NCBI GenBank assembly: GCA_035571835.1
Contig: DATNBU010000008.1
Location: 248,001-312,000 of the forward strand
Source of the DNA: Candidatus Limnocylindrales bacterium
GTDB lineage: Bacteria; Desulfobacterota; Binatia; UBA1149; CAITLU01
Direction of reading: 5' to 3'
DNA: 64,000 nucleotides
Below are positions 2,299 through 8,560 of this stretch, in pieces (position 1 is the first letter of the stretch; every line of letters begins with the position of its first letter). A program made the position numbers and the translations under genes. The notes below the pieces were generated by a model that was not told the origin of the DNA, searched no databases, and saw only the letters and a program-made list of their open reading frames with translations.

Positions 2299-3885
2299 AT
2301 GTTTCTCCCGATGACTCGCGTGAACGACAAAACCGCCGACGATTCCCGCGAGCAGGAATCTGAAGACTTAGAGCGTCATCGGTTCGACGAAGACGCGCCC
2401 GATCCGAACTCCGCGGACGCGCTCGATCCGAACAATCCGCTCGATCCGGACTCCGAAGTCGAAAGCCAGCCTCTTGATCCGGAAGAAGGACTCGCCGCAG
2501 CGGCGGTGCCGTCGCTTCTCGGGCGTGTCAGCGGCACCGGCCTCGCGACCGGACGGGAAATCTGGCGGCTCGCGATCCCGATCATGATGTCGCAGGTGCT
2601 GGTCACGGCGGTCGGCGTCATCGACATCGCGATGGTCGGCCGCCTCGGGCCGAAGCAGGTCGCAGCCGTCGGCTATGCGACGCAGCTGTACTTCATGTCG
2701 CAGTCCGCGCTGTTCGCGGTCGGCTTTGCGTGCGTCGCGCTGATGGCCCGTGCGATTGGCGCCGGCGACCGGGCGAGGGCCCGGGCTGCGCTGGCCGCTT
2801 CGCTGATCGTCGCGGTCGCGACGGCGTCGGTCGTGGCCATGGTCATGCTGTTCGCGCCGCGGCAGGTGCTCTCGCTGCTGAACGCGGCGCCCGACGTCGT
2901 CGAGCTCGCCGTGCCGTACATGCAGCTGCTGTTCGCATCGTCGATGCTGCTCGCGGTCTCGCTGACGCTGGAGCATGGCCTGCGCGCCAGCCGCGACACG
3001 CGCACGCCGATGCGCGTCTCGCTCGTCGTCACGCTCGTCAAGATCGCGCTCAATTTCGTGCTGATGTTCGGCGTGGCGGGCATCGGCGGGCTCGGCGTGG
3101 TCGGCGCCGGCGTGGCCACGCTCTTGTCGCAGATCGTCGCGATCGTGCTGTTCGGCATCGTCATTCGCCGCCAGGATCCGGAGGGGCCGATGGCGCTCCG
3201 GCGGGCGGACCTCGTTGCCAGCCGCGGCCTGCTGCGCGACGTGATCCGGGTCGCGATGCCGGGAGTCGGCGAGCGCGTAGTGCTCAACCTTGCGCTGCTC
3301 GGATACTTCGCGACGCTCAGCTCGTACGGCACCGTTGCAATTGCCGCCTACACGATCGGCGTGCGCGTCATGGCGTTCTCATGGATTCCAGGCACCGGCT
3401 TCGGCGCCGCAGCCGCGACGCTCGTCGGGCATGCGCTCGGTGCCGGCAAACCTGACGATGCCGAAAGCACCGGCTGGCTCGCCGCACGCATCGCGCTGTT
3501 CGCCGCGGTCGTGCTGGCCTCTGTCGGCGCGCTGGCGCGCGAGCCGCTCGCGCGCATGTTCACGAACGACGCGGCAACCATCGAAGCGCTCGGACCGTTC
3601 ATGCTCGTGCTGGCCGCGGCGCAGCCGATGATGCAGGTGCATTTCACGCTCGGCGGCGCTTTCCGCGGAGCCGGCGACACGTGGACTCCGCTCGTCGGTG
3701 CCGCGCTCGGCAACTGGGGTTTTCGCGTGCCGCTGGCCGCGCTCGCGGCGTCCTGGCATCTGCCGCTGGTCTGGCTGTGGACGGTGCTGGTCTTCGACCA
3801 CGTTGCGCGAATGGTCCTGCTCGCGTTCGAGTTTCGCCGCGGTGCGTGGAAACGCCGCGCGCTACGGGTTCGGCGCAGCGTGTGA
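2299..3885 (+). CDS. MATE family multidrug/cation antiporter
   Basis: 528 residues. The core (about residues 85-515) has the twelve hydrophobic segments of a MATE transporter, in two halves that each start with a conserved pattern: WRLAIPIMMSQ with the GVIDIAMVGRLG loop in the first, and VAMPGVGERVV in the second. The sequence FRGAGDTWTP near residue 455 is also typical. MATE proteins export drugs or metabolites in exchange for H+ or Na+. Unusual here is an acidic, Pro-rich N-terminal tail of about 80 residues with repeated DPN/DPD units, predicted to be cytoplasmic and disordered. A second ATG at 2314 is an alternative start. The 3' end overlaps the convergent gene by 24 bp. Confidence 0.9.
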   Translation: MFLPMTRVNDKTADDSREQESEDLERHRFDEDAPDPNSADALDPNNPLDPDSEVESQPLDPEEGLAAAAVPSLLGRVSGTGLATGREIWRLAIPIMMSQVLVTAVGVIDIAMVGRLGPKQVAAVGYATQLYFMSQSALFAVGFACVALMARAIGAGDRARARAALAASLIVAVATASVVAMVMLFAPRQVLSLLNAAPDVVELAVPYMQLLFASSMLLAVSLTLEHGLRASRDTRTPMRVSLVVTLVKIALNFVLMFGVAGIGGLGVVGAGVATLLSQIVAIVLFGIVIRRQDPEGPMALRRADLVASRGLLRDVIRVAMPGVGERVVLNLALLGYFATLSSYGTVAIAAYTIGVRVMAFSWIPGTGFGAAAATLVGHALGAGKPDDAESTGWLAARIALFAAVVLASVGALAREPLARMFTNDAATIEALGPFMLVLAAAQPMMQVHFTLGGAFRGAGDTWTPLVGAALGNWGFRVPLAALAASWHLPLVWLWTVLVFDHVARMVLLAFEFRRGAWKRRALRVRRSV

Positions 3886-5451
3886 CGAGATCTCGCTGAC
3901 GGCGGCCGAAAGTGCGTCGAGCTGGCTCGCGGCGACGCCCTGCGGGCCAAGGTTGTCGCCGAAGGCCCTTCGTACTTCGACGATGCTGAGCGGCCTGTCG
4001 ATGGCGAGAACGATGCGCGCGATCTTTTCGGTGATTCGCGCGAGCGCCGGACGCAGCTCGGTATCGAGCGCATAGATCCGGCGGCTGCCGGGCTGCCGCG
4101 CGGGCTGATCGGCGTTCGCATCCACTGCAGCGGCGCCCGGTGGCGCGGCGCCGGGCGGCGCCTGTTGTGTACCGGCGACAGGCGCCGTCTTTTGGGAACC
4201 GGCGCCGGCCGCCTGTGCGGAACCGGCGTCGGACGCTCTTCCGGAAGACGCAGCGGTCGCGTGCCCGGACGCCGCATCCGGCGCGTTCGCGGAACCGGAC
4301 GAACGGCGAAGAATCACGCCGGGGCGTCTCTTCGCATCCTCGTCGGCCAGGCCCTGCTGAACCGATTTGCCCATCGCGATCAGCACTTCGAACAACCGTT
4401 TCGTTGCCGGCTCGGGCGGCGCGGTGCGACCGTTTCGCGATGCTGCGTCGGCCACGGCGCGCGCGCCAGCATCGAGCACGGCGGCTTCCTGCGTCTTGTC
4501 CTCGATCGGCCGCCCGGCCTCGTGCTTGGCGTCATAGACCATCGGCATCAGCGACTGGCGCTCGACGATTGCACTCGACAACGCGGCGAGAGGCTCGGCC
4601 GTCGCGAGCTTCTCGTCCGACGTCGGCTCGGTGCTGCCTCCACCGAAGTAGCGGGCGCGAAGCTCGCCGAGCGTGCCGTCCTTCTCGCGGGCGAGAAGCC
4701 ACAGGTCGAGCTCTTCGGCGAGAGCGCCGCGCGCGGCCGGCAGTAGATACGCCTTTCGGTCGTTGGTGAGCGGGCCGATGCGCACGACGCCCTTCAAGCC
4801 GGCGGTCCAGACTTTCTCCTCGAAACTGTCGGTGATGACGGCGTCGAACGCGCGGTCGAGCAGCGCCATGCGCACGGCGTCGTTGTCGGCGACGGCGACG
4901 ATCTCGGCGCGACGGAATGCACGCCGGGCGACGCTTTCGAGATGGCCTCCGGCGTTGACGGCGACCCGGCGAGACGGGCGGTCGAGGTCGCTCGCGGTCG
5001 TGACTCCCGAGCCGTTCCATGTGATTGCGACAGCGTGCGTAGCCGCCACCGGCACGCTGTAGCGGCCGCTGATGGAACGCTCGGCGCGCATCGTCACGCC
5101 GCTCATGGCGACGTCGAACGTGCCGCGCGAGAGCTCGCCGCCGAGCTCGGGCCAGCGGAAACGCACGAGCTCGAGAGCGTAGCCCTTGTCGCGGGCAAAC
5201 CGCCGCGCGACCTCGACATCGAAGCCGTCGAGCGAGCCGACGGATTCGGTCGGCGCGGATGCCTCGGTCGACACGAAGCTGAACGGCGCGTAGTCGCCGG
5301 ACGTCGCGACTCGCAGCGTTCTGGCAGCGGGCGGATTTTCTGAGCGCGCGTCAGGCGCGGGCAGCAGGCAAGCAAGCGCGATGAGGACCGCAGCAAGCCG
5401 CCGCGCTCCGGCGGCAGCTCCCGCACGAACGCGTCGGTGACCTATTTCCAC
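3862..5451 (-). CDS. pheC: Periplasmic cyclohexadienyl dehydratase fused to AroQ-like chorismate mutase
   Basis: About 529 residues from a GTG at 5451 that overlaps the end of the methyltransferase gene by 10 bp (translational coupling). Residues 1-37 form a signal peptide. Residues 45-270 match the family-3 solute-binding fold of cyclohexadienyl dehydratase (PheC), with TSGDYAPFSF, GFDVEVAR, FDVAMSGVTMR, NAGGHLE and DAVITD. This family converts prephenate or arogenate to phenylpyruvate or phenylalanine. Residues 287-372 are helical and resemble the secreted gamma-class AroQ chorismate mutase (RQSLMPMVYDAKHE then PIEDKTQEAAVL, and KSVQQ). The family's usual Lys-Trp pair is Lys-His here. An Ala/Pro/Gly-rich linker (about 385-450) leads to a C-terminal helical tail of unknown role. 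The fusion would turn chorismate into phenylpyruvate outside the cytoplasm. Activity is inferred. Confidence 0.8.
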   Translation of the reverse strand: MEIGHRRVRAGAAAGARRLAAVLIALACLLPAPDARSENPPAARTLRVATSGDYAPFSFVSTEASAPTESVGSLDGFDVEVARRFARDKGYALELVRFRWPELGGELSRGTFDVAMSGVTMRAERSISGRYSVPVAATHAVAITWNGSGVTTASDLDRPSRRVAVNAGGHLESVARRAFRRAEIVAVADNDAVRMALLDRAFDAVITDSFEEKVWTAGLKGVVRIGPLTNDRKAYLLPAARGALAEELDLWLLAREKDGTLGELRARYFGGGSTEPTSDEKLATAEPLAALSSAIVERQSLMPMVYDAKHEAGRPIEDKTQEAAVLDAGARAVADAASRNGRTAPPEPATKRLFEVLIAMGKSVQQGLADEDAKRRPGVILRRSSGSANAPDAASGHATAASSGRASDAGSAQAAGAGSQKTAPVAGTQQAPPGAAPPGAAAVDANADQPARQPGSRRIYALDTELRPALARITEKIARIVLAIDRPLSIVEVRRAFGDNLGPQGVAASQLDALSAAVSEISSHAAPNP

Positions 5452-6296
5452 GCCACCAGGTAGACGACCCAGGCAGGATCGGCATCGCCGCGCGCACGCC
5501 GGCGATACACACCGTTGCCATCGCCGGTCTTCTTGTCGGTGGCTTCCCAGAATACGTCGGACGAGGAGAAGCCCGCTTCGGCGAGCAGCTCGCGAAGCTC
5601 GGGCAGGCTCCACAGGCGCCAGTCGTACGTGAACGCGTTTTTCAGCTCCGACCCATCCTTGAAGCGGAAGTGGATCGCATAGCGGCAATGATGCGAGACC
5701 GGGTCGAAGTCGATGTGGTCCCAGACGTACTTGAACTTCCCGTGCGATGTCTCTTCCTCGCGGTTGTCCTCCATCATCTCGGAGCCGCCGAGGACGTCGA
5801 GCACGAGCATGCCTTCGCTCGCCAGGCAGCGGCGTACGTGGCGGAAGTACGCTCGCAGGTCGTCGCGCGTCTCGAAGCAGAAGTACGAGAAATTCTGCGC
5901 GGCGACGATCTCGGCCTTCGAGTTGGTGGTGCGCACGTCGCCATGGACGAGGCGAAGCCGCGACGACTGGTCGTCGGTGAGCTTGCTGGCAAATCGCTTC
6001 GTGCCCCAGGCCAGCGGCTCTGCGTCGAGATCGACGCCTGTCGCGCGCCGTTCGGCGCCGCTGCGGACCCACTCGTAGCAGACCGCGGCCGTTCCGCAGA
6101 AATCCTCCCGGAGCGTGAGCGGCCTGCGCCCGTACTGGCTGCGAAACGCACGGTCGAAGAACGCGACTTCGATGTCGGGCGACTGCACCGAACGCACGTA
6201 CAGGTCGTACTTGTCGGCGGCCGCGGCCATCGATGCGCGCGTTCCGTTCGAGCTTCGTGCGGAGGTCTTCTTAGGGGACTTGCTGCTGCGGGACAT
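5442..6296 (-). CDS. Class I SAM-dependent methyltransferase
   Basis: About 284 residues from the ATG at 6296; the frame is open upstream but that part is not protein-like. A Lys/Ser-rich N-terminus precedes a Rossmann methyltransferase core. Motif I is weakly conserved (REDFCGTAAVCYEW), followed by the acidic SAM-ribose contact GVDLDAEPLAWG, VHGDVRT, and LVLDVLGGSE as the strand 4/5 region. The C-terminus closes with strands 6 and 7 (WVVYLVAWK). The substrate is unknown. It is the first gene of a pair with the pheC-like gene, whose GTG start overlaps this stop codon, so the two are likely co-translated. Whether they share a pathway is not evident. Confidence 0.8.
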   Translation of the reverse strand: MSRSSKSPKKTSARSSNGTRASMAAAADKYDLYVRSVQSPDIEVAFFDRAFRSQYGRRPLTLREDFCGTAAVCYEWVRSGAERRATGVDLDAEPLAWGTKRFASKLTDDQSSRLRLVHGDVRTTNSKAEIVAAQNFSYFCFETRDDLRAYFRHVRRCLASEGMLVLDVLGGSEMMEDNREEETSHGKFKYVWDHIDFDPVSHHCRYAIHFRFKDGSELKNAFTYDWRLWSLPELRELLAEAGFSSSDVFWEATDKKTGDGNGVYRRRARGDADPAWVVYLVAWK

Positions 6297-6390
6297 CGCG
6301 GCTCTGTAGCGGGAGCACGCGTCGAAGCATAGCGTCGGACGGCCGCTGCGGTGCACTCTGCACCCGGTCACGGCCGGTCGCTGACGGGGA

Positions 6391-6418: not shown

Positions 6419-8377
6419 CTACGAACAGGCGAGAAGCCCAGCCGAGACTTCGCACGCCAGGTTCATCGTCGTCCCGCAATCCCCGGTGACGGCGTCGCCG
6501 ATGAGGATCTGCATGTCGACGGAGTCACGGCCGTCGAGAAACGACAGGTCGGTATCCTTCAGGCGAAGGCGGATCTTCGCGAGCGACGCGGCCGGTTTGA
6601 AACGTACCACCATGGCTGCAATTCCGCCCGATGTCGCCGCGAGCGCGCTATCGGCGGGTGCGAACAGGAACGTCGTGCCGGCGTCCTTGCGGTCGACCCA
6701 TCCCGAGGCTGCGGCGAAGCTCTCGTGAAGGAGCCCGCCGGCGCTGTCGAGGAAGCGCACCGCCGCACCGGTCTGGGTGGGGCGGCTTGCCAGTCCGGCG
6801 TCGACGTACGCGCTGAACACCAGCGCATCCTCGCCGCCGCCGCGAAGATGCGCCTTGAACCGCGGCGAATAGAGTGGGGCATAATCTGTAGAGTCGAGGC
6901 AGACGCCGGCCGAGCACTGCCCGTCGGCCGAGCACGCGTCGCCGTCGTCGCACGATGCGGAGTTGTTCGGATGCGTGCACGATCCGCTGCCGTTGCAGAC
7001 GTCGTTGGTGCACGCATTGACGTCAGCCGCGCACAGCGAGCCGGCTGCGTCGAACTTGCAGTCGGCGCGGCAGCAGTCTCCGTTCGAGTTGTTGCCGTCG
7101 TCGCACTGTTCGCCCGAGTTGAGCGTGCCGTTGCCGCAGTTGGTCGGGATCGCGTCACCGATGCACGACGCGAGCTGCACGACAGGGTCGATGCTGGCCT
7201 GGCTGCACGCGGAAAACGCTTCGGTGAGCGAGCTGTAGACGACGGGCCACATCACCCAGCCGATCGGCGTCGAGACACAGGGCGAGCCGCTCTGCCCGTC
7301 GTGGTACGCGCCGAGCGAGTGGCCGAGCTCGTGTCCGGTCAGCAGGGTCATCAGGTGCAGGTTGGTATTGAAGTCCTGCGCGATACTCGCCGCGTAGAAG
7401 CTGTCGCAGACCGTCCCGAGGTACGCGATGCCGATGACGTTCTGGTCGAGATCGCGGCCGGTGAACAGGTGCGTGATGTCTCCGGCTCCGAGCGTTGCCG
7501 GATGCGACTCGCGTGCCTCGGCGAGGCTCGACAGCAGCGTTCCGCTCGCCGTCGAAGACGACAGCGGCTCGGTGCCCGCGCTCTGATAGATGACCGTCTG
7601 CACGATCGAGACCGTCACACCGATGCTCGTTGTGTAGAACGACGCGACCTGATCGACGATCGACTGCATGTAGGCCGACGTATCCGCGCCGTGCGCTGCG
7701 TAGAACGCGTGATCGGCGACCAGCGTGAGCTCGACGAGGCCCATCGTGTCGGTCACCGCGGATTCGGCGGCAACCCCGGCGGCGCCGCCGTCCTGCAAAG
7801 CGCCGAGCGCTGCGATCGGTGCCGACTCGGCGGCGCAGGTGCCGGGATCGGCGCTGACGTCGATGTCGCTCTTGCGGTAGACGATCGTGTCTTCTGCCCT
7901 CGCGCCATGCTCGTAGCGGCGCAGCGGCTCGAACAGCCACGTTTCTCCCGCCGTGGTCACGCTGCCGACCGCAGACGATCCGGCGATCGCAACATGGACT
8001 TCGGAGTCGGGATCGTCGGCGAGGTGACCGCGATAGACCAGCGACTCCGACGGCTGCCGATGTTCACCGTCATCGTCGACGACGATGGTCTGCGCACCCG
8101 CGGCTACGACCGGCGACGGCTCGAGCACGAGATCGAACGCGCGCGCCGCAGTCCTGATCCGCAGATGCGTATGTCCGTCGGGGCCGGGGACTCGCGATCC
8201 TTCGACGGATGCCGCGTCGTGCTTTCGAATCGACGACGGAATTTCCGCGCTCGACGCAGTCGCACCAGCGATCACGATCGCGACAGCGAACGCGCTGTGG
8301 CGAACAAGGGTGGGTTGATATCGACTCGCGCAGAGATCCGCGAGGCGCCGGAAAAACGTCGGAGAAAAATTCGTCAT
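6419..8377 (-). CDS. Secreted metzincin (M12-type) metalloprotease with Cys-rich region
   Basis: About 652 residues from the ATG at 8377; a TTG further upstream is the alternative. A signal peptide ends near SSAEI (about residue 45). A propeptide-like region follows. The catalytic domain has the full metzincin signature HELGHSLGAYHD, with the three zinc histidines and the glycine turn, and a Met-turn candidate in GWVMWP about 30 residues later, as in reprolysin/adamalysin-type (M12B) enzymes. Next is a Cys-rich stretch with the CGNGTLNSGEQCDDGN repeat common in secreted proteins of Myxococcus-like bacteria, then CTNDVCNG and CSADGQC repeats. The last 170 residues form a beta-rich domain. The protein is probably exported, zymogenic and proteolytic. 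Its substrate is unknown. Confidence 0.88.
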   Translation of the reverse strand: MTNFSPTFFRRLADLCASRYQPTLVRHSAFAVAIVIAGATASSAEIPSSIRKHDAASVEGSRVPGPDGHTHLRIRTAARAFDLVLEPSPVVAAGAQTIVVDDDGEHRQPSESLVYRGHLADDPDSEVHVAIAGSSAVGSVTTAGETWLFEPLRRYEHGARAEDTIVYRKSDIDVSADPGTCAAESAPIAALGALQDGGAAGVAAESAVTDTMGLVELTLVADHAFYAAHGADTSAYMQSIVDQVASFYTTSIGVTVSIVQTVIYQSAGTEPLSSSTASGTLLSSLAEARESHPATLGAGDITHLFTGRDLDQNVIGIAYLGTVCDSFYAASIAQDFNTNLHLMTLLTGHELGHSLGAYHDGQSGSPCVSTPIGWVMWPVVYSSLTEAFSACSQASIDPVVQLASCIGDAIPTNCGNGTLNSGEQCDDGNNSNGDCCRADCKFDAAGSLCAADVNACTNDVCNGSGSCTHPNNSASCDDGDACSADGQCSAGVCLDSTDYAPLYSPRFKAHLRGGGEDALVFSAYVDAGLASRPTQTGAAVRFLDSAGGLLHESFAAASGWVDRKDAGTTFLFAPADSALAATSGGIAAMVVRFKPAASLAKIRLRLKDTDLSFLDGRDSVDMQILIGDAVTGDCGTTMNLACEVSAGLLACS

Positions 8378-8560
8378 TTGGAGGAGCGGTGATGGTAACA
8401 CGCGAACGAGCGATAGGAACGCAGAATCACGCAAAATTGCCGCACCCGCATTCGATCCACCGCATGGCGCAGCGCAGCAGCAACGAGAGGTTTTAGCGCA
8501 CGTAAAGTTGTCGCGTCTTGCGGAGGATGGCTCGAAGCTGCGTGGCGACCGACGTCGGGC

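Follow-up and report, generated by a model that had tools for sequence, protein, structure and literature searches.

The window analysed here is a stretch of 64,000 nucleotides (positions 248,001 to 312,000 of the forward strand of contig DATNBU010000008.1, assembly GCA_035571835.1) from a genome deposited as Candidatus Limnocylindrales bacterium and assigned in GTDB to the class Binatia of the Desulfobacterota. On its minus strand, at positions 3862 to 5451 with the stop codon included, lies a gene for a protein of 529 residues in which a domain resembling the cyclohexadienyl dehydratase (CDT) PheC is joined to a chorismate mutase (CM) of the AroQ-gamma type; the frame, read from an assumed GTG start at 5451 down to 3862, has no internal stop. 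Beginning at the N-terminus, the protein comprises a presumed export signal recognised by inspection (about residues 1-38, positions 5338 to 5451, minus strand here and for the following segments), the PheC-like domain (residues 46-270, 4642 to 5316), the first half of the CM (residues 283-375, 4327 to 4605), a disordered loop rich in Ala, Pro and Ser (residues 389-447, 4111 to 4287) and the second half of the CM (residues 461-525, 3877 to 4071). This type of fusion is already published from proteobacteria; here it is common in another bacterial class and has a consistently altered dehydratase site.

With respect to the domain layout, Pfam places SBP_bac_3, a solute-binding protein (SBP) family, at residues 46-270 of the window protein (8.7e-19), and the predicted structure of this part is matched by Foldseek to 3kbr (TMt 0.85). 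Searching the solved structures with the single sequence by phmmer gives cyclohexadienyl dehydratases as the best matches (5jos, 4.6e-26; PaCDT 5hpq, 1.1e-24), and the bifunctional proteins 8cq4 and 8cq6 are found at 3.5e-22 and 3.7e-22, respectively. The CM part is matched only weakly by CM_2 of Pfam (residues 291-366, 1.9e-4, 22 bits where 27 are required) and by the AroQ-gamma model TIGR01806 of NCBIfam (residues 285-368, 1.7e-5, 24.9 bits, below the curated cut-off of 74.15). With a profile of the whole fusion family, the best full-length matches amongst the structures are 8cq6 (1.1e-77) and 8cq4 (4.5e-74), and the top Foldseek matches of the full model are the CDT-CM fusions 8cq6, 8cq4 and 8pnh (2.6e-21 to 9.3e-21), with a root-mean-square deviation of 23-25, so that the relative placing of the two domains either differs or is uncertain in the model. 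Because family profile, predicted fold and conservation agree, the CM assignment is considered secure despite the weak match of the single protein, and with a PheC-type domain followed by an AroQ-gamma CM in one chain the protein belongs with the exported CDT-CM (CDTCM) enzymes. An earlier note, made from the letters alone, had proposed such an exported chain, and its two domains are borne out by Pfam, the family profiles and the predicted fold, its export signal by inspection. A plasmid search with the window protein returned 101 matching records, none covering 80% of the query and the ten listed matching its SBP part, and a scan of genome contigs, from which near relatives of the host may have been left out, returned 15 loci, none matching beyond query residue 286.

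AroQ-gamma CMs consist of two helical halves within one chain. The earlier note had confined the mutase to residues 287-372, which are predicted to make up only the first half of the AroQ-gamma fold, and had described what follows as an Ala/Pro-rich linker and an extra helical tail, both of which turn out to lie inside the CM fold. The profile of the CM part, built from 24 fusions, aligns with 6cnz over profile positions 5-158 (7.3e-25), with 8cq6 over positions 5-150 (1.7e-22) and with MtCM 2f6l over positions 4-151 (1.6e-11); the tail segment is thereby aligned onto the second half of 6cnz, 8cq6 and 8cq4, while the match to 8cq3 ends early in it. In the family alignment the class relatives have this second segment as well, with the consensus DLxxxLRPAIxRID. 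AlphaFold2 predicts helices at residues 462-482, 490-504 and 508-525 with a block pLDDT of 93-98 (84 in the last block, 521-529), and a pLDDT below 50 for residues 389-447. With the model of the CM part alone, Foldseek gives 6cnz as top match (3.2e-4), and VIA-align yields Z scores of 19.6 for 8pnj and 19.3 for 8cq3, both from Aequoribacter fuscus, of 16.9 for 6cnz and of 16.6 for 2fp2; these alignments comprise 151-153 residues and fall within model residues 3-249. Fourteen AroQ-gamma entries reach Z scores of 12.8-19.6 over 145-155 aligned residues, from model residue 2-6 to 239-250 of 250; helical bundles may attain a Z of about 13 by their arrangement alone, and 12 of the 14 entries score at least 15.4. 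In turn, the single-half CM 1ecm covers only model residues 1-98 (Z 10.2). Yersinia pestis and Mycobacterium tuberculosis CMs were likewise matched in the structure searches (2gbb was aligned) and served as a comparison of folds only. The predicted fold thus has the all-helical form in two halves, of about 150-165 residues altogether, that characterises AroQ-gamma; in the model the supposed tail supplies the second of these halves, with the Ala/Pro stretch forming a disordered loop inside the fold. That the tail is a separate new domain was rejected, as it aligns with the C-terminal half of these mutases. The stretch separating the columns of Q365 and R467 measures 16-60 residues in the class relatives, 101 in the congener G001 and 102 in the window protein, and the loop is longest in these last two genomes.

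For the CM active site, conservation was counted at readable sites in 40 sequences of the class, one per genome and the window included. The first half contains R298, K309, D318, Q321, E322 and Q365, and the catalytic residues Arg49, Lys60 and Arg134 have their counterparts in R298, K309 and R467, while catalytic Arg72 has none. R467, which probably corresponds to MtCM Arg134, judging by how the second halves of 6cnz and 8cq6 align with it, is found in 37/38 sequences; Arg134 is among the active-site residues listed for MtCM (PMC10520331). R298 and K309 are each present in 39 of 39 readable copies, so that the loss of catalytic Arg and Lys, which the earlier note had named as evidence against a mutase, is not seen. 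At the position of Gln76 all 39 sequences have Val or Ile, at that of Glu106 Lys is found in 29/38, and Glu109 is represented by Gln in 34 of 38 sequences and retained in the other 4; the changes at Gln76 and Glu109 resemble those of the published fusions, which are active (PMC10520331). Gln or Arg at the position of Arg72 (window residue 321) splits largely by family, and the clades with one or the other may differ in CM activity.

The dehydratase site is altered as well. Nine active-site residues of PaCDT are kept in all nine published fusions (PMC10520331); the window protein, with PaCDT numbering transferred via the printed alignments and our own, keeps six of them and has K100A (Ala140), T132H (His170) and N133L (Leu171). 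In the 40 class sequences, again at readable sites, Tyr22 (38/38), Trp60 (38/38), Asn128 (39/39), Asn152 (40/40) and Glu173 (40/40) are invariant, and the position of Thr169 is occupied by Thr in 28, Ser in 9 and another residue in 3. The position of Lys100 has Ala (35) or Val (3), that of Thr132 His (34) or Tyr (5), and that of Asn133 Leu (37) or Met (2), the remaining four fusion-bearing genomes (G063, G103, G114, G118) agreeing where these sites can be read. In a proteobacterial comparison set of eight PheC-like proteins and fusions, by contrast, Lys and Asn are always present, and position 132 has Thr (7) or Ser (1). Of 42 columns conserved in at least 90% of sequences, 10 fall on one of the 19 listed active-site positions, more than expected by chance (p 1.5e-6). 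Amongst eight non-fused SBP proteins, the six from class genomes (L138-L143) lack the CDT residue set, whereas two from the phylum outside the class (L136, L137) keep Lys100 and Asn133, with Thr and Leu, respectively, at position 132.

It might be supposed that the reaction or the substrate of the PheC-like domain is no longer that of PheC: the CM would make prephenate, and the rebuilt pocket (Ala140, His or Tyr170, Leu171) would handle another shikimate-derived compound or give another product. The three replacements are each found in 42 of 42 readable genomes and are themselves conserved, unlike what would be expected of decay. However, the general acid Glu is kept together with Tyr22, Trp60, Asn128, Asn152 and the presumed carboxylate binders, so that the prephenate reaction may persist, and we regard a changed chemistry as a rather improbable, though serious, alternative. 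The SBP fold comes with the general-acid Glu expected of PheC, as Glu173 corresponds to E211 of the window protein. In PaCDT, Glu173 is the proton donor and its Gln mutant is inactive, and in JbCDTCM the sulfonate of MES is contacted directly by Ser107, Arg112 and Lys225 and through water by Lys127 (both from PMC10520331). T120, R125 and K233, equated with Ser107, Arg112 and Lys225, are without exception in 22, 22 and 24 rows, respectively, and JbCDTCM Lys127 is equated with Lys100. Judged from the alignments, the residues presumed to bind the carboxylate therefore appear to have been retained along with the general acid, while another part of the pocket changed. The Cys pair forming the disulfide described for the CDT domain (PMC10520331) is lacking, the window protein having no Cys from residue 46 onward.

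The N-terminus of the window protein is clearly hydrophobic on inspection, with Cys28 in an imperfect lipobox, an Arg standing too close to this Cys for the strict pattern. Of the 40 class rows, 36 have a readable N-terminus and 22 of these match that pattern, while one protein (L101) is lipoprotein-like yet fails it, which suggests that many class relatives are membrane-anchored lipoproteins. As its own signal fails the pattern and the relatives in G001, G002 and G005 have no lipobox, a soluble periplasmic form is the better guess for the window protein. The SBP fold found by Foldseek would also suit a binding or sensing protein whose PheC-like domain has no turnover, with the CM active or not, and which signals or passes its ligand to a partner. 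The substitutions in both active sites and the lipobox of the relatives, though not of the window protein, are in favour of this proposal, which is nevertheless unlikely: the proton donor Glu173, whose Gln mutant is inactive in PaCDT, is kept in 40/40, and no gene for a transporter or receptor was seen to recur beside the fusion, the neighbours outside the host's family being judged from sequence starts.

To determine the spread of the fusion, a profile (A1) was built from 24 fusions, comprising the window protein and 23 of 27 strong loci (L004-L030, with L012, L018, L023 and L027 left out; L027 gave no BLASTP match although its frame holds the fusion, and its genome was counted in the conservation table as L102). 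Searched with it, the host's class (148 genomes) has 84 genomes matching at 1e-10, the weaker ones mostly by the SBP part, and a gap separates the fusions, with at least 192.6 bits, from all other matches, with at most 139.1 bits. The fusion family is present in 44 of these genomes, distributed over eight family codes (f1, f7, f8, f9, f11, f13, f15 and f16) and including 7/7 genomes of the host's own family; it was not found in the other 104, some of which are incomplete. Amongst the 44, the sequence in G063 ends at a contig edge before the CM, those in G103 and G118 break off inside the CM, and in G003 and G006 the front part is missing because the contig ends there. In G015 (L098) and G042 (L093), the CM is wholly or partly out of frame with the PheC-like part, owing to sequencing error or a broken gene.

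Beyond the class, 395 genomes of the phylum were sampled, of which 16 belong to the class, and the other 379 have no fusion at 1e-40, two matches among them covering the SBP part only. In the order of a Cupriavidus genome (399 genomes, 1e-45) two CDT-CM fusions (L122, L123) and four more matches with the PheC-like part only were found, and in the class of a gammaproteobacterial metagenome-assembled genome (274 genomes, 1e-40) one CM-CDT fusion (L135, G945) and one PheC-like protein (L134); in these surveys, that of the host's class included, 4-12 candidates were scored per genome at the larger sample sizes, and a poorly ranked copy could be missed. Stocker et al. 2023, counting only matches classified to species, described such fusions from nine beta- and gamma-proteobacterial species as 'extremely rare' and their purpose as an enigma (PMC10520331). 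The fusion called extremely rare in print is thus common in the host's class, and none of the papers listed by searches of an open-licence library was seen to report a CDT-CM fusion in another bacterial class. Its description as unusual consequently holds only in part, as there is precedent in three beta-proteobacterial species with the same CDT-CM order, two of whose proteins have been crystallised (PMC10520331), yet 44 of 148 class genomes hold it. A search of the 148 class genomes with the CM part, aimed at an unfused source, gave one standalone exported CM besides the fusions. This apparently exported AroQ-gamma-like CM of the host's order (L117:6399-7145, genome G007) is the only non-fused one of that length; the other CM-part matches are weak (at most 30.9 bits) and in other frames, one of them being the host's CM-PDT-ACT protein.

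In the tree of the CDT domain, from which two contig-end fragments (L009, L029) were omitted, a branch with support of 96/94 separates the class fusions from the rest, and the two beta-proteobacterial fusions stand among PheC-like proteins. Holding class and beta-proteobacterial fusions together is rejected for the CDT domain (approximately unbiased test, p-AU 0.019), this test having been run after viewing a first tree and with two long SBP rows dropped, which makes it moderate evidence; for the CM, a single clade of both is not rejected (p-AU 0.207). A separate fusion event with the same domain order is therefore the better, moderately supported, reading of how the class fusions may have arisen.

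The closest known systems are the fusions of Janthinobacterium sp. HH01 (8cq4) and Duganella sacchari (8cq6), which are exported and share with the window protein the domain order, a CDT together with a full AroQ-gamma CM, and the CM changes Q76V, E106K and E109Q. The window protein differs from them by the replaced Lys100, Thr132 and Asn133 of the CDT site, by Gln at the Arg72 position of the CM, by the lack of Cys after the signal and by the 59-residue disordered CM loop, and the class as a whole by its many lipoprotein-like members, its different taxonomic position and a CDT tree favouring separate fusion. The exported gamma-proteobacterial CM-CDT of A. fuscus (8cq3, 8pnj) has the same two domains, with the highest Z scores for the CM fold (19.3 and 19.6), in the opposite order. 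PheC (PaCDT, 5hpq/3kbr) and the exported AroQ-gamma CMs (6cnz, 2fp2) share the folds and most of the listed active-site residues, but they are separate proteins and differ at the replaced residues. A bolder and rather improbable reading is that the class fusions are a third, independently fused lineage of exported CM-coupled SBP enzymes, common throughout the class and often anchored as lipoproteins, whose dehydratase pocket was rebuilt (Lys, Thr and Asn to Ala, His or Tyr, and Leu) and which would carry out another reaction on prephenate, or on a compound related to it, outside the cytoplasm.

The flanking genes vary within the class. Directly upstream on the minus strand, at 5442 to 6371, lies an open reading frame for a class I S-adenosylmethionine-dependent methyltransferase (PF13649, 3e-6, 28.3 bits against a cut-off of 27), and a convergent gene for a MATE-family transporter (2299 to 3885, plus strand) overlaps the 3' end of the fusion gene by 24 bases. 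The MATE gene has this convergent position in 6/6 host-family loci examined, and the methyltransferase lies directly upstream in all five that show that side, while the remaining class loci surveyed, among which 32 have a recognised fusion, contain no member of the methyltransferase cluster; in this survey genes were picked by a custom script and upstream flanks vary in length. A functional partnership of the methyltransferase with the fusion finds no support beyond the host's family, and the survey of other genomes proposed in the earlier note does not make it a general partner. Translational coupling of the two genes, also put forward there, is plausible, as the GTG at 5451, if it is the start, overlaps the methyltransferase stop codon (5442-5444), the two genes sharing 10 bases in all, although no obvious Shine-Dalgarno stretch was seen at the fusion start by inspection. 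Further upstream, at 6422-8434 on the minus strand, the window encodes a metalloprotease resembling the M12B reprolysins, in which a Cys-rich stretch is weakly matched by DUF4215.

As both steps from chorismate to phenylpyruvate are held in outline, the fusion might also be taken for an ordinary enzyme of phenylalanine biosynthesis. Against this stand the export signal, the lack of a Pfam match to an ACT domain in the fusion protein, the number of class genomes in which the fusion was not found, and a separate, complete protein of cytoplasmic type in the host genome with CM_2, PDT and ACT domains (L001), because of which the fusion should be dispensable for phenylalanine synthesis. We consider this explanation very improbable.

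The explanation that we favour, by a narrow lean, is that of an exported CDT-CM-type protein which converts chorismate via prephenate to phenylpyruvate outside the cytoplasm and captures or senses chorismate or prephenate leaked from cells; its architecture, predicted fold, conservation and spread are computed, while we infer export, catalysis and role. Several observations weigh against it. The CM match of the window protein alone remains below the curated cut-offs of both Pfam and NCBIfam, and the fold prediction was built with the family alignment and hence is not independent of the sequence evidence. At the Arg72 position of the CM the window protein has Gln (Q321), as do 21/39 class sequences against 18/39 with Arg. 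Lys100, Thr132 and Asn133 of the dehydratase are each replaced in every readable one of the genomes that hold the fusion, and the neighbouring genes differ between the families of the class and none supports a role. The proposal that the whole path to phenylpyruvate runs on one chain hence stands as to the two domains but is weakened by these replacements, three of nine residues in the PheC-like site and the Gln in the CM.

Following the path through the favoured protein, the AroQ-gamma domain, completed by the former tail, would most likely rearrange chorismate to prephenate outside the cytoplasm. By analogy with the published fusions, for which no channeling was found (PMC10520331), prephenate would diffuse from the CM to the PheC-like domain, where Glu211 may protonate the leaving group as Glu173 does in PaCDT, and this domain, with its partly rebuilt pocket, would most likely turn prephenate into phenylpyruvate, this last step being uncertain. 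The role would most likely be the capture or sensing of chorismate or prephenate leaked from cells, after the low-Km chorismate sensing proposed for the beta- and gamma-proteobacterial fusions (PMC10520331).

The 44 of 148 class genomes offer natural replicates in the presence and absence of the fusion across families, in its lipoprotein-like and soluble-looking forms, in the alternative residues, Gln and Arg, at the Arg72 position of the CM and in the uniformly altered dehydratase pocket. These replicates ease testing why chorismate chemistry runs outside the cytoplasm, and the family adds a further case of a solute-binding-protein enzyme with a diverged active site.

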